A stretch of DNA of 64,000 nt. Origin: Incurvaria masculella. Lineage: Eukaryota > Arthropoda > Insecta > Lepidoptera > Incurvariidae. Both the position numbers and the translations under genes were made by a program. This document shows positions 18,941-55,100 of this stretch, piece by piece; the first letter of the stretch is position 1, and each line of letters begins with the position of its first letter. Under the pieces are notes generated by a model. That model was not told the origin of the DNA. It saw only the letters and a program-made list of their open reading frames with translations, and searched no databases. The DNA lies in contig OX335641.1 in NCBI GenBank assembly GCA_946894095.1, forward strand, positions 17,068,501-17,132,500, written 5' to 3'.

Positions 18941-18944
18941 AATT

Positions 18945-18977
18945 GAGGAGTGACTTTTCAAACGGACTTATTTCCAC
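18945..18977 (+). repeat. Left terminal inverted repeat of the DDD transposon
   Basis: 33 bases starting GAGGAGTGACTTTTCAAAC and ending CTTATTTCCAC. The inner half contains the unit CAAACGGACTTATTTCCA, repeated elsewhere near both ends. Two differences from the right repeat fall at positions 20 and 22. Confidence 0.9.
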
Positions 18978-19235
18978 TTTTGAAAAAAATCGAGTTGAGT
19001 ATAGGAAAATTATTATATTGTTGAATTCCACCGGCACACAAAACATTACTGAGCAAAACGATTTATTTCCAGTCTAAATTCAACTATCAAAACGATTTTC
19101 CTGAACAAACTGGCTTATTTCCGAACTAATCCAATAGAATAATTTCGGACTTGAGCATCTCAAGTCAAAAAGTCTTATTTCCCATACAATATGAGCATAT
19201 GTATAACCTGTTCGTTACAAAGGAGCTTAATTCGA
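18959..19235 (+). repeat. Left subterminal repeats (CAAACGGACTTATTTCC-like)
   Basis: Copies lie at 18959-18976 (in the terminal repeat), 19053-19070, 19105-19122 and 19164-19183, with a weaker one at 19214-19233. All are in the same orientation, about 50-90 bases apart. Such arrays commonly serve as transposase binding sites in DNA transposons; that role is inferred here. Confidence 0.6.
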
Positions 19236-19437
19236 TTTTAATACAAAACTTGGCTGTCAGTTGAGATATTACTTATATGATGACCCATTTAAAATACGGT
19301 CAACTAAAATATGGTTTGCTTGCTTGAGTAGCTGTCAATGTCAAAGACGAATACTGGCGTCAATTTATTAATAATCTGTCACAGTTATCGACAAATCGAT
19401 CTGCTACCTATTTCATCTCTGTAAAAATAATAAAATT

Positions 19438-21713
19438 ATGTCCGAGAGACGTGTTGAAGAGATAAACCCTGGGGGGCGGCGTCGACCAAAGCAGGCCAAG
19501 CGAACAAAGGAGTAAGTACCCATCTTATAATACCAATGAACTTCTATGCGGGACATTTCTCAATAGGTAGTCGAAAAATATTTCGACTTTGACTTCAAAA
19601 ACATCTTTCCTTTACCTTTTCTTATTATATCGCGTTTTCATCAATGCGAATATAGGTGATATTGTTTCCTTTATATGCTGCGCTGCATGTATGTGAGTAT
19701 ATAGCTGTGTAGTGATGGCTCTTATCGTTAATGTTCACCTGGCTCGTGAGTTAGTTTTTTCTTTGCTACTATGATTTTAGTAACAATATAAATGCGGGAA
19801 TGCGAGACAGACGTTCGAGATTATTTTATAATTTTGCAATGTGGGATTACAACTACAGGACTGTCCGATTCCGGGATGATTGGCGGCCTAGCCCGTACTA
19901 TTTTTATTTATAGCCGGTCAGGGTGTGTTCATTCTTGTTGAAAATGCTTACTAATATGTTTTTGTATTGTTACAGTTATTCAGACAAGAACCCACTTGGC
20001 TTAGGGTTTCAAGCACCCTGCAAACATGGATCTAAAAGTAAATTTAAGTGCGCTTCATTCACATTGGGATCAATAATAAAGAACAGAAAACTGTTTTATA
20101 GGAACACACGTAAATTGCACCAAGATATATACCTAGCAAGATTGATGGCCCCCTACGAGCCACAAAATAAAAAGAAAACAAACGTTAACATAAAAAACCG
20201 AAACGTAAGCTGTTCCTACAACCTGTACACTAGGAAAAAAACTGCAAAAGTCGTATGTAAAAAATTCTTTATGTCGGTGTTTTCTGTGGGTGAAAAAAGA
20301 TTAAACAGGATAAATAGAACTACCATAGCTGGTAATATTCCAGAAGAAAAAAGAGGTGGGGACCGATATGGTAATAAAAATAAAGATAAAAAAGACTCAC
20401 TGCGAAACTTTCTCAACAATCTACCGGCTCGAGAGAGCCACTACAATCGCTCAAAATCCAAGCGTATCTATTTGTCCAGTGAATTAACAGCAAAAAAACT
20501 CCTCAATATCTACAACGATACACATCCCCAACTCAATGTAAAAAAAACAATGTTCTACAAGATCTTTCATCGAGAATACAACATTGGATTTTCGAGCCCA
20601 GCCAGTGACATTTGTAGTGCATGCATTCTTTTGTTGAACAAAATAAAGATAGAAAAAAATTTAGAAAAAAAACAAGAGCTCATCACTTTGAAGAGAGTAC
20701 ACAAACTGCGCGCAAAAGCGTTTAATGATCTTATGAAGATAACATTAGAGGAAGAGCTGTCTTATTGTTTTGACTTGCAACAAGTCCAGCCTTTACCGCG
20801 GACTCCTATACAAGACGCATTCTATGCAAGACAGGTAGCTCTATACAACTTCTGTGTTGTATGCCTAACATCCAGAATGCCAACGTTTTATACGTGGGAT
20901 CAAACCAAGGCGGCAAGAGGTGCAACGGAGATTGGTTCAGCTTTATATGACTTCCTCACACAATTGACAATACCAGAAAATATTCGCACAATCAGATTCT
21001 TCTGTGATGGATGTGGAGGACAAAATAAAAATAAGCATGTCATCCACATTCTGATGTATTGGCTAAAAAATAAGTCTCCAGCTCATGTCCATCAAATAAG
21101 TCTTATATTCCCCGTACGAGGTCATAGTTTTTTACCAGCCGACAGAGTATTTGGACGGATTGAAAAAGACCTAAGAAAACGACCAATAATTACAACAATT
21201 CAGGAATACCATGACATATTTGAAAAGCATGGCCAAGTTAAACTGCTAGAAAGAGACTGGAATTTGATAAATATAAAAAGCTTGGAAAACAATCTAAACA
21301 AGCTTGACGGAATCCAAAAAATGAAAAGGATTTATATAAGAAAAGTCCAACGGAGAAATCGAACTACAGGTTGCACCGTTACAGGTTTTGAAAACTTTAG
21401 ATTTAATGGTAATGAGACTCCAGAAACACTGCTCAAAAGAGGAAAAAGGATTCCTTGTACCATCGAAGAATTACCGCCTGCATTTCATCCACTTAAAGAA
21501 AATATGAAGAAAGATGTACGGTCGCTACTCATCAAACAGTTCGGAGAAAATTGGGAGGATTTAGAGGAACTAGCGTGGTACAAACTCCTAATGCAGGGAG
21601 TGCCGGACCAAAATAATCTCGAAGAAGTGGACGAGCGAAATAACGAAATCCAGGCAGACTCAGAAGAAGCATGTTTATGTAACGAGGAAGACATTGGTGA
21701 TATTAGGGTGTAA
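19438..21713 (+). CDS. Two-exon DDD transposase-like protein, 603 aa
   Basis: Exon 1 is 19438-19511 (MSERRVEEINPGGRRRPKQA and on, basic). A GTAAGT donor follows, and exon 2 is 19976-21713 after a TTGTATTGTTACAG acceptor. The split codon GA|T keeps the frame, so the real start is 19438 and not the GTG open frame at 19923. The N-terminal third is basic with spaced cysteines (C40, C50). A D-I-C-S-A-C pair follows (C238, C241), then F-D-L-Q-Q (D291), Y-T-W-D (D333), C-D-G-C-G-G-Q-N-K-N (D369) and G-H-S-F-L-P-A-D-R-V-F-G-R-I-E (H408, D414, E421). D291, D369 and D414 are the best candidates for an RNase H-fold DDD triad. The Cys-Gly-Gln-Asn-Lys-Asn block recurs in a large set of uncharacterised insect proteins (I think the DUF7869 type). 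The tail is acidic. AATAAA overlaps the stop (21712-21717). It lies between matching terminal repeats, so it is most likely the transposase. Confidence 0.85.
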
Positions 21714-21863
21714 TAAAATATGAAAAGTGTGTGTAGTATAAAAATTAAATATAATGACCAAAGTTTTGTATTTTTATTTCTCTGAATACTATAAAGTTAT
21801 AAATTTATTGTCTTATGAAATTTCCAGTTATCTTTATCAAACTGTCAAATTCCATTAATGTCC

Positions 21864-21944
21864 ATTACAAACGGGCTTATTTCCATTTTGTCCGTGACAA
21901 ACGGACTTATTTTCTGATGTCCTCGGCAAACGGGCTTATTTTCA
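21864..21944 (+). repeat. Right subterminal repeats, 30-bp spacing
   Basis: Three direct copies of CAAACGGRCTTATTT at about 21868, 21898 and 21928, spaced 30 and 30 bases. They point the same way as the left-end copies, that is opposite to the right terminal repeat itself. Confidence 0.7.
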
Positions 21945-22108
21945 AATTTTTTTATTTTTTTTTAAATTGCGTGATAACAAAAAAAATAATACAAATATAT
22001 TTTCTAGCACTCGTAACAACACAGAAAATGATTATGTTTTTTTAGTTTTCATAATAAATTCCTTAGTCTTGCTTTAGGTTTTTTGCGATTTCTGAAAATT
22101 TTGTTAAT

Positions 22109-22141
22109 GTGGAAATAAGCCTGTTTGAAAAGTCACTCCTC
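22109..22141 (-). repeat. Right terminal inverted repeat of the DDD transposon
   Basis: Inverse of 18945-18977 with two differences. It begins GTGGAAATAAGCCTG and ends AGTCACTCCTC, followed by AATT. Confidence 0.9.
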
Positions 22142-22145
22142 AATT

Positions 22146-38190: not shown

Positions 38191-41100
38191 ATGGCGAAAA
38201 TGGAGTGGGCATGGCTACCGTTTTTGACGGTCTCGTTTGCACTCATTGTATGGTGAGTTAAAGTCTGTTACTCAAGCCAGCTGCTTGGTAGATACTCTTC
38301 CAAATTCATGGAGGTATTCGTGACCTACATTTACATCATATTACATCTGTTGCTGATTCTTTGTGCATAAAGTAGTGTAATTATTGTTGCACAATATTTC
38401 ACTGAAAATTATAATAATATCGCTCATGTGTAATGTGATGATTTCTAGGATGAACTAAATCTCAAGATCGGGTTCGATACCAGGTGGCTGCACCATTGTC
38501 TGTCGTGTTAAGAGTTTGATAAGTGCATAAGGCATAAGGGGTTATCTGCGGTTTTTTGCCAAAATGACTTTGGTCAATAGAAAAATAAAAAAATTACAAA
38601 GTTGATGAGACACTAATGGGCTCAAGTCTTCCGGCGGTCAAATTTGAGATTACTTCCATATATTTTATGTCAAAATTGACAGTCGGAAGCCTTGAGAATC
38701 ATCTCAAGACCCAAGAAACAACAAATTGACAAACAAAACTGATAGATGGAAAGAAAAGCTTGTAGAAGGTTCGCCTATGGTTGAAACTTTAACGGGCGGT
38801 AGATGAACCAATTTTATTAAGAGCTTAAAACATTAGAATCATATCCCTGGAATGCTCGTGTCTAGACTAGGTATTTCATGAAATAATTCATAATTTGCAA
38901 TTACTGCTCAATATACAGTTATTAAAGCTTTGATCTTGCATTTTCAGTCATCTGGCCTCTGTTTAAGAAATAATGAGCATTTCAAATCACCTTAAATTAT
39001 CCTGTTCGAATTTTAGTTACAAGGTATTCCTTTGTTGTGTGTTTATCTTAGGCAGAAATCGATTATTTAACAAAAAAACTACTTATTACAGCCACATTCT
39101 AGTGTGTTAAAATTACTAGTTTACTTTTCTGTAACTGGAAACACCTCTTTTCTAGTGTTAAGAGTGCAGAGCAGCACTCTTCGTACGTCACAGAATGGGA
39201 CATGCTCATCTTCACCCAGCACTGGCCGATCACCGTCTGCCAGGAATGGAAGGAGACCAGCGAGAGCCACACTTGCTCATTCCCGACACCACAGGACACA
39301 TGGACTATCCACGGAATCTGGCCCACAAAGGCTGGCACCTCATTCGGTCCGCAGTACTGCAATAGGACGTGGCACTTCGACCCCGAGCAGGTCAAGTCCA
39401 TAGAGACTACTCTCAATCAGATGTGGATCAACATTGAGAAAGGTATATTTTGTTTCAAAACATGCCTGCTATGCGTATTTGTTCGTTTATACATTTATTT
39501 TTCCCAATTAGGTGTATACACACTCTTGCATTTGACAATTTACAAGACAGTGAGATTACCGAGGACCAAGAAGAATCGAAAAGAAACTTCACCTGTAGTC
39601 GTAAAATAAATATATTTACACCTACATAGCTATTAACCCTTATTTACACAGGCGGCACAAAAGTGCCAGAACCAAGACCAACGTCGTTACATGAGCGGCA
39701 TTTAAGTGCCGTTTCGTATTTTCATTCTGCGGAAAAGACAAATCCACTGTGGCAACTCAATACCATAGATTTGTTATACATAATTTTATTGAAAATTGTA
39801 TGTAGGTAGATTTATAATAATAATGATAAAGACAAGTGTTAGTCGGACTCGCACACAAAGGGTTTCGTACCACCGTACAAGATTTAACACAAAAAAAACA
39901 CGTTTCCTTTTTATTTTTATTTTTTACACCCTTTAATTTTTATTATTTTTTTATTTTACCTATTGTTATAGCGGCAAAATAAATACACACTCTGTGAAAA
40001 TTTCAGCTGCTATTACGGTTCATGAGATCTAGCCCTGTGACAGACGGACGGACGGACCGACGGCGGAGGCTTAGTAATAGGGTTTTCACCCTTTGGGTAC
40101 AGAACCCTAAAAATTGTCTGCTCGATCTATATTTTATATCTATGCGAATTTTAGGAAGTTGCTTTCATACTACCACCAATTTTAGACATATGTAGATTCT
40201 TAAAATAATATTCAGAATGTAAAATCTCAAAATTAAAACTTTTAGAGCATGTAAACAGTTATCACCGTAGTATGGGGAATTGATAGGGTAATGACTCTTA
40301 ATTTCAAGTAACATTTCCGACCCACTTGATCAGACTATAGACTAGGAGGTCGCGACAAAAATGGTAACGATAACGTAAATGGCTGAAACTGCGTTCACGG
40401 GCTAAGGACCAACCCTTTGAAGCTAGATGTGTCAGTCTGCCTATTCCAAGTGGTTGCGTTAATAAGATAAGGCGCCTGAAAAAGTAGGTATGGTGACAAA
40501 AAATAAATATGATAAGGTAAATGGATGCAAATGACGTAGCATGAAAGTATCAGTACATACTTGGTTAGCAATACAAAAACTGAACAAATCTTTGGTTGCA
40601 TTTCGTAGTTATAGGCGATTTAGGTTACAGATGTAACTTTAGGTATATTTAAGTATTTAATTTAAAAATCGACTTTTTATTGTTGTATAATTAATAAGTA
40701 TCAATGTTTCTAAATAATCAGTATATTCAAAAGCATGTACATATCAACATCTAATTTATATAGCCAATCTAGATAATGCAACCACTTGGCACAGGCAGTC
40801 TTACACATTTAGCTTGGTATCTTGCTCACATTTAGCTTGGATATATTTTAGGTTGGTATCTAACCTGTGAACCCAAATTCAGCCATTTACATTATCGTGA
40901 CCAAAAATGTCGTGACCTTCCGGAATACCAGGAAGATAGACTATAAAAACCGGCCAAGTGCGAGTCGGACTCGCACACGAAGGGTTCCGCACCATCGCAC
41001 AAGATTAAAAAAAAATATGTTTTTTGTATGGGGGGCCTTTAATTATTATTATTTTATAATGTTACCTATTTGCTGTTATAGCAGCAAAAGAAATACATAA

Positions 41101-43329
41101 TCTGTGAAAATTTCAGCTTCCTATCTGTTACGGTTCATGAGATACGGCTCTGTGACAGACGGACGGACGGACGGACGGAAGGACGGACGGACAGCGGAGG
41201 CTTAGTAATAGGGTTCCGTTTTTACCCTTTAGGTACGGAACCCTAAAAATGAATATGTATTGCTTAGCTTTTACTATAGATAGTTATATAAAAATGTAAT
41301 GTGGCTACTTTCAATAAAAGAGATGCAAACTGCGTACCATTAAATACCACAAACTAAGACGGCCGATCAAACTGACCACCAATATACTTTATTGTCAAAA
41401 ACATCTGTGAGACCGAGCCCTGCAACATATTTCCTGAACTGCTGTTTTATCACTGTTTGCAACCGTTTGGTACATACATTTTTACTTTAAAATATTTTTA
41501 TTTTATTTATTTATTTATATTCATAATCATACACAATACAGTATTCACATTTAACTATATCTAAGGGGATTAATACAATTCCAATAGACCGTTTGGCCCG
41601 TGGTGAAATGGTTTGCTAGGAATAAACATTTTGATTAAGTTAAGAGTGCGTCTTCTGTATATTATGTATGAAATAAGTAATATATAAATAAAAAATTCGA
41701 TTATAATATTAGATAAAGAGTAAACTAAGTAACATTAAATAAGTATTTTGATAGTGTAAGTCAAGGTGTTAGTGTAATTATGTGTTTTTATTGTAATATA
41801 AAATTAAGGGCTTCTTCACACTCTTGTCTCCCTGCATCAATAAGCTAGCAATGGAGAATTTGTTTCCCCTTATTGTTAGATTTTTAAAATAATTTAATCA
41901 AATTTATCTGAACTTGTTTGTACACCGTGTCCTAACTCTCCAAACCAACATGTAAAAGTAACATTTTAAAGGTATGCGTGAAGAAACAAATATACAAAAT
42001 TTGACTCAAACTCTCATTGACTTAGGGTTCTGATAAAAATAAGCACTTTGATGCCAAATTGGGTTTTGTTATTTTTATCATTATACACCTATAAACCCAT
42101 CCTTTTTCAACCATCGCTCAACGCAGAACAGCCAAGAAATGCACCCATTCACTGTCCACATTCCCTAAATAAGAACCAACCTATCCTCTAGATCCTTTTT
42201 CTATAGCATAGGTGAACTATGGAGCAGAGTCTGCTGAGATATATCCCAATCATTTAGATCGGTACATTCGGTTTGACCAAGGTTAAGGAAAAAAGTTATT
42301 CCAGAAGTGTAAATTACCTTCTCTAATGCGGTCAGGACTAATCAAGCTAACGATTAGAATATTGTTTACAGAAACTTCAACTTATGCCCTGTGGGCCCAC
42401 GAGTGGAACAAGCACGGAACCTGCGCAGCTGTTCTGACCCCCCTCGCCACACAACTGCAGTACTTTTCCCGTGGCATCACCTGGCTCAAGCAGTACAACA
42501 TGACGGAGATTCTCGACGAAGCCGGCATCTTGCCCTCACTAGAGAAACAGTATGACATAGCCGACATATACAAAGCGGTGACCAACAAGCTTGGGGTGGC
42601 GCCCATCATCGAGTGTCGCAAGGACCATGGATACAGCTACATATTCGAGATGAGAATCTGCTTCAGCAAGGCCTTGGAGTTGGTGGGCTGCGAGGGGACT
42701 TCAACGGTGCAGTCCGTACAGGTTCGTGGTTGTCTTAAACTGGGTTTATCCATGGGTAGATAACTAGTGATAATGGAGAAAATCTGTAAATCAGTTTGTC
42801 AGAAGTGGAAGACAAGATGGTCGAGATCGATGGTAGATTTTGTGTATTTTAAAAGAACAGAAATCCATCAATATTTTTACTTTTTTTTTTCTCCCAGTAT
42901 AGTTTGCTACATATGTTGTGAGAGCATTACAAGGCACTTTGGAATATTTGTGTCTCGTACATTAGTATCGTCGGTAGGTTTATACTCTCCTAACAGCCAC
43001 TTCCCGTTCAGCTACCAACGGGATTGCACTGTACTTTACGTGTCTCTGAGACGACTCCCTGTGTAGAGGGCATAAGGGCTTTCCACCACTTCTATGCTGA
43101 AAGTCCCTGTTGACATATTTTTCAGGTTTATATTCATAAAGACTTGGTTTTTCTGTTGTAAATGTGACATAAAATGCTCTTTCAGATCGGAGACAAGCAG
43201 ATTATAACAAACTGCGACACCAAAATGGGAGTTTTCTACCCTCCGACTCTGCCGACTCATCCCACTCCCAACTTTGCCATAGTTCAACTCTACCGACTGG
43301 TGACCTGGCTGCAGTGGTTCACGCAGTGA
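38191..43329 (+). CDS. RNASET2: Ribonuclease T2, secreted or lysosomal, 4 exons, 280 aa
   Basis: Coding exons: 38191-38252, 39156-39442, 42372-42721 and 43186-43329 (stop TGA). All junctions have GT-AG sites and matching phases (TG|T, G|AA, then a codon boundary). The first exon encodes a signal peptide (hydrophobic core around residues 8-20). The enzyme cuts RNA at 3' sides through a 2',3'-cyclic phosphate intermediate. Both active-site blocks of the family are present: CAS I as W-T-I-H-G-I-W-P (H73) and CAS II as H-E-W-N-K-H-G-T-C (H126, E127, H131). Many cysteines fit disulfides, and N90-R-T is a glycosylation site. The length is normal for animal T2 enzymes, which work in lysosomes or outside the cell. 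Intron 2 carries repeat family B (twice) and MITE family D. No truncation or missing residue seen. Confidence 0.93.
39838..40113. repeat. Repeat family B copy 2, in intron 2 of the ribonuclease gene
   Basis: Same landmarks as 25590-25874: GTCGGACTCGCACACAAAGG at the left, GACGGACGGACGGACC at 40043, and GGTACAGAACCCTAAAAA at the right. Confidence 0.7.
40349..40918. repeat. Fold-back MITE, family D copy 2, in intron 2 of the ribonuclease gene
   Basis: Left GGTCGCGACAAAAATGGTAA and right inverse TGACCAAAAATGTCGTGACC. Inner parts CCAAGTGGTTGCGTT and AATGCAACCACTTGGC are inverse. Same design and size as 34776-35308. Confidence 0.7.
40950..41250. repeat. Repeat family B copy 3 with long (GACG)n, in intron 2 of the ribonuclease gene
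   Basis: Best-preserved copy: starts AACCGGCCAAGTGCGAGTCG and ends GGTACGGAACCCTAAAAA. The GACG microsatellite at 41156-41190 is the longest of the four. Confidence 0.75.
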
Positions 43330-48530: not shown

Positions 48531-49135
48531 GATACTTGTTGATTTATGTTCTATCTTTAATATGTCTTTCTTTTCTTTTACTCACTTGTATTTAAACTAT
48601 CTTACCACATCAAAACTTCATCAAAATGTCCTCTCAATAAATAATTAATTATGCATGTAAAAATTGGGATAATCTCATTTATAATTTTATTTTTTTGTAT
48701 GACTATTAAAAAAAATACACCACAGGAGAAATGTTTGGCTGCTGTGTCGGGGTATCCAGCGGTTCAGTAAAGTCAACCTTGTCTCGCTCAATGGTGTTTT
48801 AGGCTAAAACGAAAACCTAACACCACTAAAGGTTTGGATATCCTCACAATGTTTTCCTTTACATTTATAAACATGGTGTTAAAATATAAAAGAACACTAA
48901 AGTGGAGTTCAGATTCAGATCAAAAAGGAATATGTGCCATCTTGCACGCCTATTATGAGACCTTCCTACATTTTCTAAAACTACCGTTCCACTTAAACGT
49001 AAAAATGGCCATCTTTCTATTATTATGTGCACACATTGTCCATACAGTGGAGTCACAATGACGACCACATGCCACTTCTAATAGGCTAGAAATGTCCCGT
49101 TGAAAATTCGGGATGAATGCCAAAAATCCACCGAC

Positions 49136-52100
49136 CTAAAACCTCTAGCGGCGTATCATAGTCCTCGACCGTGAATATTTTCTTGGGAAAAGTGGTCATC
49201 ATCTTGAAGGCGCCCTCCGCCGCGAACTCGCGCGCGTTCATCTCGAGGTAGAGCCGCACGGCGGCGAGCTGCTCCTTCGCATTGAACGTGTGCGCGAGCG
49301 AGCGGCCGTCCGGCAGGCGCAGCTGGATGCGGGCCTGCTCGTAGGAGGGCTTCGCGGGGGACGGCTGCGCAAGAGCCGGCACGGCGGCGGCGGCGGGGGC
49401 GGCAGCAGCCGGCGCCGCCTCCGCGGGCTGGCCACCGCTCGCCGCGAGTCTAAAACGTAAATAACATTTCACGATGGCGCGTTGTGTATCCATATTAATG
49501 CTAGATACCTCTATCGACCGACTTTTTCGACTATCCGACCTAGGGCTAGTCCACATTAGGTTGGCTAGTCGAGGTTCTACTGTGTAGTTAACATTCTATC
49601 ACTGAATAGCTAGAAAACAGTTAATTGTAGATAAAAAAAAAATCAAATTTGTGCATCCTATTATTGGTTGGTGACCATTTTAAAATTAAAATACATCCAC
49701 CCCTTATTTTTCACCTGAAGAAGAAAGAAGAAAGAGCAAGACGGAATGAGTAAGACGGGTTCGGTTTTGCTTTCAGTGCTCTCTCGACATGTTCCTGACC
49801 ACAATGTTAAGGTGGCCCAACCCGGCGGGACTAACTCATTCGCGGGCACTGTACAAAACCGTGCTGTTGCGCTCTGGGACCTTCTCCGTTTCAAATAAAA
49901 AGACAGGCTCCGTGATGAGTAAGATGCAACATGTCCACAAAAAAGACAATGTTCATAGTGTATGATTTGGTAACATTTACGAAAATTTTAATTACAAAAC
50001 GACTTATAGCTAAATGTAAACCACGACCGCTGTAGTCAAAAATCTAACAAAAACCAAATAGATTATAAATCTTGATTAAATAAGCTATGTCTGATGACTA
50101 ATCTTTCTAAGATGTTCTTACTTTATCATTGCGTAATTCACCTCCAAAGTTATTGTATAAAACCCGCGAAAAATTCGAACTTTCGGACCTTATAACTTGC
50201 AATGCCAATGGTCATCAGACATCTAGTTCGATCAAATAAAGCTATTTTGAGCAAAATTTGGGATCTCTGATAAGAAATATGGGCGTGATCTTCTTTCCCC
50301 GGGGAGTTGAGCGGGATGGGCCACCTTAACCAGAGATGGTGCTCTCTAGCCTTAGTGTGTTAGCCATGGTATAAATCATCCAAGTCCAGTTCAATAAAAA
50401 AACCGGCCAAGTGTGAGTCAGACTCGCACACAAAGGGTTTCGTGTCATCTTACATGATTTAATAAAGATAAATACACAATTTGTGACCATTTGAACTGTA
50501 TACCTATTACGGTTCATGAGATACAGACGGGCTGACAGCGGAGGCTTAGGAACAGGGTCCCGTTGGCACCTTTTGGGTACGGAATCCTAAAAAAGAGTGG
50601 CGCCCACCTCCTGGCCTGCTTGTCGGCCTCGATCTGCCGTCGCACGCGCTCGCGGGCCTGCTGCTCCTCGAGCTTGTCGCGCCGCCGCTGCTCCAGCATC
50701 TTGTGCACCTCCTGCTCCTGCAGCCTGAGCTTCGCGTCCTGCATGTCGCGCCCCGACTTGATGCGCAGCTTCTCGCGCTCCAGAGCCTCCGCCTGCGACA
50801 TTCACCGTTGAATGTGACGTCCCGCTGGGCGTTGATAAAGATGAGCCCACACAATCGCTGTCTTATTCCTCCCCATCCTACCTTTGTATATCCGGAGCAC
50901 CCGCCGCAAAAAATCAGAGCACCCACTTTTGGTTGACATTAGGCTTTTGAGAACGAACCGTTTCTCAAGCTCATATTTCTTCCTCAGGAACTTTCTGCTG
51001 GCGGGTGCCTTTCCTCATATCTGTAACCTGGAAGTCTTCAAGCGTAATTTGGACAAGCTCGATAGCTCAGCGATAGTCCACAAATCCGCTGGTATGGTGC
51101 CTCGCTGAGCGTGGTTTCGCGAGGCGAGGTGTATTTGGCTTTTCTGAGCACCTTTGGTCCTCAGCAGAGGTACCGGTTTTTGATAAAAAAATACCCACTC
51201 GGGCCCTGTCAGCACTGAAGCTCAGTTTGAGCGTAGGGCAATGGAATCCAGAGTTATACTACTATAGAGATACTTAACAACATTATAAATTGGTTTAGTG
51301 GTGAGCAGGGGGGTTAATATGAGAAAAGTCGGAGAAAAAAAGGAGTGTTTTTCAATGGACTTTAATAGTGGCCTATATATAAGGTCGGGGAAAAAGTCTT
51401 TTCGCATTATAGTATGTATGAACTTGTAATAAAATCTCTTTGGCTATACTATTTGTATCTGGCTGGTTTTGGTATCATTGAAAGTTTAAATTTTAAAGAA
51501 CATAATTCCAAATTAAAATTAGGAAAATGTGTGATTCTCATTTGTTTTTCGTACTGTCAAAATGAGTGAATCTAATGAAGAAATTCGATACATTTTAAAA
51601 TTTTACTACAAAAAAGGTAAAAATGCAACGCAAGCCGCGAAAAAAATTTGCGATGTTTATGGACCTAGTGCAGTGTCTGTGAGAGTAGCACAAATTTGGT
51701 TTAAGCGTTTTCAATCCGGAAATTTTGATGTCAAAGATGCACGTCGCTCTGGTCGCCCTATTACGGATAAAATGGATGCCATTTTTGAAAAAGTGGAGCA
51801 AGATCGGCATATCAGTAGTTACGACGTAGCTGAAGAACTAGGAATTGATCACAAAACAGTTTTGGCGCATTTGAAAAAAACTGGGTACACAAAAAAGCTC
51901 GATATTTGGGTACCTCACGAGCTCACTGAAAGAAACCTAATGAACCGTGTACTCATTTGTGATTCTTTATTACGACGTAATGAAACCGAACCATTTTTGA
52001 AGAAGCTGATAACTGGTGATGAAAAGTGGATCACGTACGACAAGAACGTGCGAAAAAGGTCGTGGTCAAAGGCCGGTCAAGCTTCACAGACTGTGGCGAA

Positions 52101-55100
52101 ACCCGGGTTAACTCGCAACAAGGTGATGCTGTGTGTGTGGTGGGATTGGAAGGGCATTATTCATTATGAGCTGTTACCACCAGGCAGGACCATCGATTCT
52201 GAACTCTACTGCGAACAACTGATGAGATTAAAGCAAGAAGTTGAGAGAAAGCGGCCGGAATTAATCAACAGAAGGGGTGTGGTTTTTCATCATGATAACG
52301 CTAGACCTCACACATCTTTAGCCACTCAGCAAAAACTAAGAGAGTTTGGCTGGGAGGTGTTAATGCATCCGCCGTATAGTCCTGACCTTGCACCTTCAGA
52401 TTTCCACCTGTTTAGGTCTCTTCAGAATTCTTTAGGCAGTGTCAGGTTAACATCACGAGAGGACTGCCAAAACCACTTGTCGCGGTATATTGATCAGAAG
52501 TCCCAATATTTCTATAGCAATGGGATCATGTCCCTACCTACAAGATGGCAAAAAGTTATCGAACAAAATGGTACCTACATACTTTAGTTAAATGTAAATA
52601 AACCATATTAAAAAATGTTTTGAATTTTCTTAAAAAATGCGAAGAAACTTTTTCCCCAACCTAATATATAGAAGTTTGAAAAGTAATGATACGCAAAGAG
52701 GGTGAATGCGACAATGGGTATATTATGGAGAGAAAGTACCTTTTCTTTCTCCTCCCGCTCTCGTCTCTTTTCCTTCATACGCTCCTCGAGTCGCGCGAGC
52801 TGCTCTTTCTTCTCCTCCTCGCTGAGCGGTTTCTTCTCCTCGGTGGACTCTGAGAAACTGCTGTGGCCCGACTTGGCCGCGTGGAACTCTACCTCGTCCT
52901 GGCTCTGTGGTGTCACATTGAGTCAATCAATCTATCTATACCATTATATAAAGAGGAAAGGTTTGATTGTTTGTGTATTTGAACTGAATAGGCTCCGAAA
53001 CTACTGAACGGATTTTAAAAAAATATTTCATCGTTGAAAAGCTACAGTCTATCCGAGTAACATAGGCTATATTTTATTTAAAAAAAATTAGGGATCTTTA
53101 CCAAAACTCCGATAACGTAACCCAAGGTGAAAAAAATTATCAAGAATGTTCCTTACATCGCGAGCCCGGCGAAAACTATTCACGATAGAACAAAATGATG
53201 TACTACAATTTTATAGAACACATCAGTATCTACAAAAAATGTCACAACAGCATACATCTGACTATTATAGTTAAGTCACAATAAGTGTGCATTTAATATA
53301 AAATAAAAATTTAAATACCGCCGTTAGAAAAGGCTCTTTATTTGTACCTAGGAATTAATCCTTATAAAAATAAATAAATTATTATTTAAGACTGCTTCAA
53401 TACCTTTATATAACTCTTTGAATTATTAGATTCGGACATTCCATTCGAAATATATCACAAGTTTAAAAATTAGAAAAAACTCTGCTCGGCTAGCTATGCG
53501 TTTTATTTGTAGGCGTCACTCAGGGGTACGGGAGCCGACTCCCCGCCAAGGCCACAAAATAAACTTGCCACGCGGCACATTCCCGCAGTCTCCTACGCAG
53601 CGGTCTTGTGCGGAATTCAAAAAATTGTCGCTTGATAATATTTGGTCGCTTGATGATAAATAGTTTAGTAGGTAACTAAACGCATTCAAAAAGATCTTTT
53701 CAAAACTAGACCTTGTTAATATGACCTAATATATGTTGTACATTTAGTTATCCTAATAACTAAGTGACTTAAATCGTTTTTAAGATTTTCGATTAAATCT
53801 TTTTTAGTTGTAGGTTATAGTAGTAGTTGTAGGCTAATAACAATTAAGCTAATTATTTAGTGCAAAATAAAACAACATCAAATATTGTTTACGGGAGGCT
53901 TTAACTGAATAAATTAATTAATGGCTTTTGTTTTGTGGTTATGACCTTTTTACAATAATTAATAGTATGAAAAATACATCAAAAGTAAAATATACAAAAA
54001 AAATATATCTATAAAAACCAATATTAATTAAAAAAATAATAAAACATACAAAAAACATTATATTCACAAACAAATTCAAATAATATCTAAGTTTTTTTTT
54101 ATTTCAAATATTTCAGTGTAGGTATATGCTCTTTTTTTAGAAACTCTACGTAAAAAGGGTTTATTTGTGTATCATTGTGTCAAAATAATATTTTTTTAAA
54201 TTATATTATGCCCGTGCAAAGCCGGGACGGGCTGCTAGTTAATAATAATTTTCGCGTATTTTGGATTTTATTTATCCCCGGCTCCGCTCGGGTCAATCTC
54301 ATTTTGGACAAACTTTTTCTGGATAAAAAGTATCCTATGTGTTAATCCAGGTAATAAACTATCCATGTGGCAAATTTTTATTCAAATGCGTTAAGGCGCT
54401 TTTGCGTGATTGAGTAACAAATTCAAAACGTGCAAACTTTTACATTTTATAATATTAGTAGGATGCAGGCATGCTTTTGACTTGACTCTTGATGTGCAAC
54501 CTACCTTCTTTATTTGAACATCAATCTGCCCAGGAAATTATTCTACATATAAAGTACTGATCTTATGTGTGGTGAAGGACTCTTGGTGCTCTGTAGTGAA
54601 ATCGTAAATTGTTCCAACTCATGAGCCAGTGAGCCGATATATTTTTTATTGAATTTTCATATTAAATTATTTATAACTAAGACTTCAAAATGCAACTAAT
54701 TAAGTAATATTACCTTGAATACATTGCAGAAATATATACAGCTTGTCTTTAGATTTTTATATCATAAGTGAATAATATGTTGTATTTTTTCAATGGAAAC
54801 TCCATTAAGATTTTCTCTTTTGTATATGAAATAAACGTGCTTCTAATATACATATATCTATTATGATCTATTTCTAGATATTGCTGTTCCAAGCTGAAAT
54901 TAATATTTTTTTATTTTACTTTTGTTTACATTTTCGGCATAACTCTTAAAAAATTCTGCAGAGAAGAAGTACCTTAAACAGTTTCCCGCACTCATCACAT
55001 TTGAGAGACTTGGCAACGGCGTCCTCCGCCGCCTCCCCACTGGTAGACTCGGCGGGGGCGGCGGCAGCAGTGCTCGAAGAGCCCACCGCGCCCGAGCCCT

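Follow-up and report, generated by a model that had tools for sequence, protein, structure and literature searches.

A recent DNA transposon of Incurvaria masculella, very probably mobilized by its own DUF7869 protein

Does a 603-amino acid (aa) protein of a type usually listed as unknown move the DNA that encodes it? This question is raised by a locus in a 64,000-nucleotide stretch of the lepidopteran Incurvaria masculella (GenBank assembly GCA_946894095.1, contig OX335641.1, positions 17,068,501 to 17,132,500 of the forward strand), the whole of which is called the window hereafter. A first-pass annotation had proposed that positions 18945-22141 are a complete and recent DNA transposon with an intact gene, 33-bp inverted repeats, AATT as target and a triad of catalytic aspartates (DDD). 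We found that this 3197-bp element is very probably an autonomous DDD cut-and-paste transposon with one gene, encoding a 603-aa DUF7869 transposase; the proposed function is supported by copy number within its own genome, target duplications, empty sites and a predicted catalytic core, and the element may still be active.

A DNA search of the whole genome (552 Mb, 31 contigs) detected nine full copies of the element, 3197-3198 bp long, on seven contigs, together with one 3′ fragment. The inverted repeats of the window element (18945-18977 and 22109-22141) matched at 31 of 33 positions with AATT outside both ends, confirming the proposed borders to the base, and the eight further full copies carried the same ends. 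All nine copies were flanked by a perfect 4-bp target duplication (AATT, AGTT, AAGT, AATT, AAAT, AAAT, AATT, ATAT and ACTT), and two equal 4-mers 3 kb apart would be met by chance in the window at about 0.5% per site. AATT was found at three of the nine copies and the form AWWT (W being A or T) at six of nine. The fragment (L010:4387-4620), a 3′ piece of about 680 bp on contig C3, had AGTT after its end.

Empty sites, which the first-pass annotation had suggested looking for, were present for both insertions tested, those of copies L008 and L009, each uninterrupted and with the duplicated bases occurring once. The L008 target was found uninterrupted at six other places, at 100% identity over 272 of the 300 query bases, and in the four inspected ATAT stood once, precisely at the junction. 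For L009, three places were uninterrupted over the 300-base query, two of them at 99% identity and the third at 95%; the two inspected had a single ACTT and a few substitutions nearby. The reading frame around the L008 target resembles, by eye, a BEL/Pao reverse transcriptase. In addition to these empty sites, the element lies at nine positions spread over seven contigs, no two of which share a flank, and every copy has a 4-bp duplication of its own. It is therefore extremely improbable that the inverted repeats arose by chance around a host gene or a segmental duplication, and we found no point favouring that explanation.

The earlier view of a recent element was borne out by the alignment of the nine copies, in which only five columns varied. 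One of these (21281) was a coding substitution common to L008 and L009 and the sole coding difference among the nine copies, all of which kept the three aspartates. The other four lay close together and form a single change, peculiar to the window copy, in one of the subterminal motif copies, of which copy L002 has ten; this change (21838-21853) could alter the mobility of the window copy. When the private cluster was ignored, 14 of the 36 copy pairs differed by one base in 3198, with a mean of about 1.2e-4. With a butterfly mutation rate of roughly 3e-9 per site and generation, a rough figure for the copy divergence is about 20,000 generations, to an order of magnitude. Furthermore, the exact 19-bp tip occurred 19 times in the genome, corresponding to nine pairs and the fragment, and nowhere else. 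Because the copies are near-identical and the exact tip has no other occurrence, we read them as a fresh burst without near relics, a picture consistent with recent horizontal transfer. Miniature derivatives or old relics sharing the tip with up to two mismatches were rejected, since three two-mismatch matches were obtained vs seven in a reversed-pattern control; beyond the two mismatches that the tip search covered, the DNA search yielded one more diverged match, 72% identical across 132 bp. Among the matches listed, the best-scoring relative covered 96% of the query at 57% identity and partial relatives reached 63%, and therefore no source species is indicated.

The structure of the window element is as follows.

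18941..18944 (no strand): left target-site duplication AATT, 4 bp; from sequence and copy comparison
18945..18977 (+): left terminal inverted repeat, 33 bp, starting GAGGAGTGAC; 31/33 match to the right end
18959..19234 (+): left subterminal array, five direct copies of a 17-bp motif (CAAACGGGCTTATTTCC, 1-4 mismatches) starting at 18959, 19054, 19106, 19166 and 19218
19438..19511 (+): predicted exon 1, 24 codons plus 2 bases; from frame and GT..AG, ATG at 19438
19512..19975 (+): predicted intron, 464 bp; GT at 19512, AG ending at 19975
19976..21713 (+): exon 2 including the stop, by predicted splice; spliced product a 603-aa DUF7869 transposase
20607..20624 (+): D236-x-C238-x2-C241 motif, conserved and preceding the catalytic core, with H267 downstream; each residue in 60/60 relatives
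20772..20774 (+): codon of D291, first proposed catalytic residue, in the first core strand; D in 59/60
21006..21008 (+): codon of D369, second proposed catalytic residue, just after the fourth core strand; D in 60/60
21141..21143 (+): codon of D414, third proposed catalytic residue, close to where the last core helix begins; D in 60/60
21838..21853 (+): subterminal motif changed in the window copy and in no other; in L002 it departs from the motif at two positions
21868..21943 (+): right subterminal motif array, motifs at 21868, 21898 and 21927
22109..22141 (-): right terminal inverted repeat, 33 bp, ending GTCACTCCTC; contains a motif copy at 22111-22127 (-)
22142..22145 (no strand): right target-site duplication AATT, 4 bp; from sequence and copy comparison

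The intact gene described earlier was recovered, the two exons of the predicted splice giving exactly 603 aa, and the relatives P0004 and P0036 have N-termini similar to the exon 1 product. No second open reading frame of at least 80 aa was present in the list for the element. Allowing up to five mismatches, the 17-bp motif had nine matches in the element and 11 in the remaining 60.8 kb of the window, and 100 base shuffles of the element gave a mean of 0.61 and a maximum of three. The subterminal motifs are proposed as transposase binding sites. Zinc binding by the conserved D236, C238, C241 and H267 is a guess. No Rfam match at the gathering threshold was found in the window.

DUF7869 (PF25273) was the only credible Pfam match of the protein, at 36.6 bits against a cut-off of 26; the other row, YokU, had an E value of 0.11 and lay under its own cut-off. 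All 56 members of alignment A1 matched DUF7869 at E ≤ 0.01, with three stray families in one member each. Homologue searches returned 569, 46 and 335 proteins. Among the best 120 of 569, all 46 and the best 120 of 335, most name no organism, and those that do are all insects (Lepidoptera, Coleoptera, Hemiptera and Blattodea, as assigned from general knowledge of the names); one, from Nesidiocoris tenuis, is named "transposon protein". In agreement with the first-pass annotation, D369 and D414 were present in all 60 relatives and D291 in 59 of them. E421, tried as the third catalytic residue, was rejected, since it was E in 51 of 60, N in eight and K in one, vs D414 in 60 of 60. The AlphaFold model has an RNase H-like core, as the DDD proposal had led one to expect, resembling retroviral integrases and mariner transposases by VIA-align, so that the three acidic residues would belong to such a core. 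A viral structure library gave nothing at E ≤ 0.001, and relatives were confirmed in none of the 17 stretches of viral contigs or the 22 of prokaryote genome contigs that matched the search pattern.

DUF7869 matches were detected at no fewer than 105 places in this genome, the nine window-type copies included, and none in 14 control genomes. The homologues examined here were dispersed multi-copy elements with inverted repeats of their own, and six further families had such repeats together with a 4-bp ANNT duplication (N being any base). Their proteins were 21-32% identical to the window protein, and the tips (GAGG, GAAG, GGAC or CGAG) differed between families. Copies with both ends were examined for Fa (4 of 7 loci), Fb (4 of 5), the 881-aa family (2 of 5), the 589-aa family (2 of 8 same-score rows), the 600-aa family (2 of about 8 similar rows) and the 826-aa family (2 of 10 same-score rows). 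With the window family this makes 25 copies in seven families, a count that leaves out the 807-aa family, of which one end was seen, and the families L023/L024/L026, L033-L035 and L036/L039/L040.

In all 25 copies the 4-bp duplication was perfect, beginning with A and ending with T, a form (ANNT) to which 9.8% of the 4-mers of the window belong. The duplication was preceded by a pyrimidine (Y) in 20 of 25 cases and followed by a purine (R) in 20 of 25, and 18 of 25 had the AWWT form. The earlier reading of the target thus stood as to its length but not as to its sequence: AATT, at three of nine sites in the window family and 6/25 overall, is ruled out as a specific target, and because every duplication is ANNT and AATT a minority, the rule is ANNT. 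The preferred target would be Y-ANNT-R. Since the rule holds over wide divergence, DUF7869 proteins as a class are likely a transposase family, in this genome at least. A subterminal array common to all families found no support, since a clear one was seen just in Fa and in the window family: within the first and last 450 bp, 10-mers were repeated four to five times in Fa and three times in Fb and the 589-aa family (both ends included), with none repeated in the 600-aa family, in a scan covering these four families and not the 826- and 881-aa ones. Contig C20 (17.8 of 552 Mb) held 25 of the 105 matches and C21 held 11, ten of them in its first 1.5 Mb (hand count); as a guess, C20 may be a W or another repeat-rich chromosome.

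The coexistence of many DUF7869 genes also bears on whether the gene could be a passenger or dead enzyme, with a different DUF7869 transposase from this genome mobilizing the element in trans. The protein of L056, in the 881-aa family, lacks the first aspartate, yet two copies there are 99.9% identical. However, the nine window-type copies differ in coding sequence by a single substitution, common to L008 and L009, with the aspartates intact in all; their exact tip was met nowhere but in them and in the fragment, and tips differ between families. We therefore consider a passenger gene very improbable. As for the 881-aa family, L056 and L057 were 99.9% identical over the compared stretch with ATAT duplications at both, and its tip is similar to the one seen in the 807-aa family, which is why the 881-aa element may be mobilized in trans.

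Several observations weigh against an autonomous DDD transposon. No known Pfam transposase family was found at E ≤ 0.01 in any of the 56 A1 members or in the window protein. A PDB sequence search with the window reading frame gave nothing at E ≤ 1, and profile A2 a single match, to a solute-binding protein, at E 0.63. The fold likeness comes from VIA-align, a re-ranking of the Foldseek top 1000 only; Foldseek itself returned nothing at E ≤ 0.001 for the whole protein (best IstA, 4e-3), and for the core nine matches at E ≤ 0.001, all MutSbeta with TM-scores of 0.24-0.30. Relative P0213 has A at the D291 position, and the 881-aa protein (L056:2581-5223, -) has Y at the first catalytic D, where the other 14 aligned have D. 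Finally, target choice rests on 25 sites, and the empty sites cover two of the nine copies, both insertions tested being positive.

With these points weighed, the autonomous transposon remains our preferred explanation, and its movement may be envisaged as follows. The transposase would bind the 33-bp ends and the repeated 17-bp subterminal motif and would cleave the DNA at its GAGG..CCTC tips, where D291, D369 and D414 would hold the metal ions. The ends would then be joined to target DNA 4 bp apart, preferably at Y-ANNT-R sites, and host repair would produce the 4-bp duplication. Our data indicate that the unnamed insect proteins of the large DUF7869 family are probably DNA-moving enzymes; proteins listed as unknown thereby gain a function, together with exact element ends, a rule for target choice and a candidate catalytic triad, and annotators could relabel such genes from "uncharacterised protein" to "transposase". 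The near-identical intact copies are a practical candidate for a DUF7869 transposition assay and possibly a new insect gene vector.

Elsewhere in the window, 51562-52587 (+) encodes an intact 341-aa mariner transposase (Pfam Transposase_1 and HTH_48). It has 12 further copies, each 98-100% identical across no fewer than 1017 of the 1026 bases, and its ends look, by eye, like mariner inverted repeats. Open reading frames at 39202-39609 and 42326-42763 (+) match the first and second halves of a ribonuclease T2 domain and are likely exons of one gene; another, at 49086-49556 (-), has a UBX domain.

To which known system is the element closest? Retroviral integrases carry E as third catalytic residue, whereas the window protein has D, with listed identities of 7-15% and no retroelement context. 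The families that follow were compared through excerpts of published descriptions. For Tc1/mariner (Mos1, SETMAR/Metnase), the duplication described is TA (PMC10741241), unlike the 4 bp in 25/25 here, and the window protein has no Pfam mariner domain. Kolobok and piggyBac share a 4-bp duplication, and Kolobok the 5'-RR..YY-3' tips of the window element, but both use TTAA (PMC9587614), found at 0/25 sites, and the C/DxxH motif of Kolobok is absent, by eye, between D369 and D414. The CMC group (EnSpm/Mirage/Chapaev/Transib) is described with C(2)C and H(3-4)H between the second D and the last catalytic residue (PMC12730594), whereas by eye the window protein has no CxxC between D369 and D414, its conserved CxxC preceding D291.

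Sola elements are closer, being described with a DDD transposase, 4-bp duplications, sizes mostly of 2-9 kb and variable inverted repeats (PMC10741241), all of which the window element shares, its triad by conservation. The AT-rich AWWT duplications printed for dictyostelid Sola2 (PMC3627910) correspond to 18/25 of ours, all 25 being ANNT, in a comparison of descriptions; those elements differ in having 12-21 bp inverted repeats and carrying Fanzor1, against 33-bp repeats and no second frame of at least 80 aa here. Both likenesses count against DUF7869 transposases being a superfamily apart from Sola that shares the 4-bp AT-rich duplication and DDD core, a matter of classification and not of mechanism; we hold this possible but doubtful. 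In its favour, no Sola-named protein was among the listed homologues (best 120 of 569, 46 of 46, best 120 of 335), most of them nameless, and DUF7869, PF25273 and the motif strings were not found in the literature text searched. Rather unlikely, too, is the fuller proposal of an undescribed superfamily that targets Y-ANNT-R, duplicates 4 bp and has purine-rich tips starting with G or C, and of which several families, the window's included, were near-simultaneously active in one genome. Repbase includes insect Sola2 entries, and the kind is therefore probably already known even if the Pfam DUF7869 link is absent from the literature searched. In Repbase terms, compared by description only, the element is most likely a Sola2.
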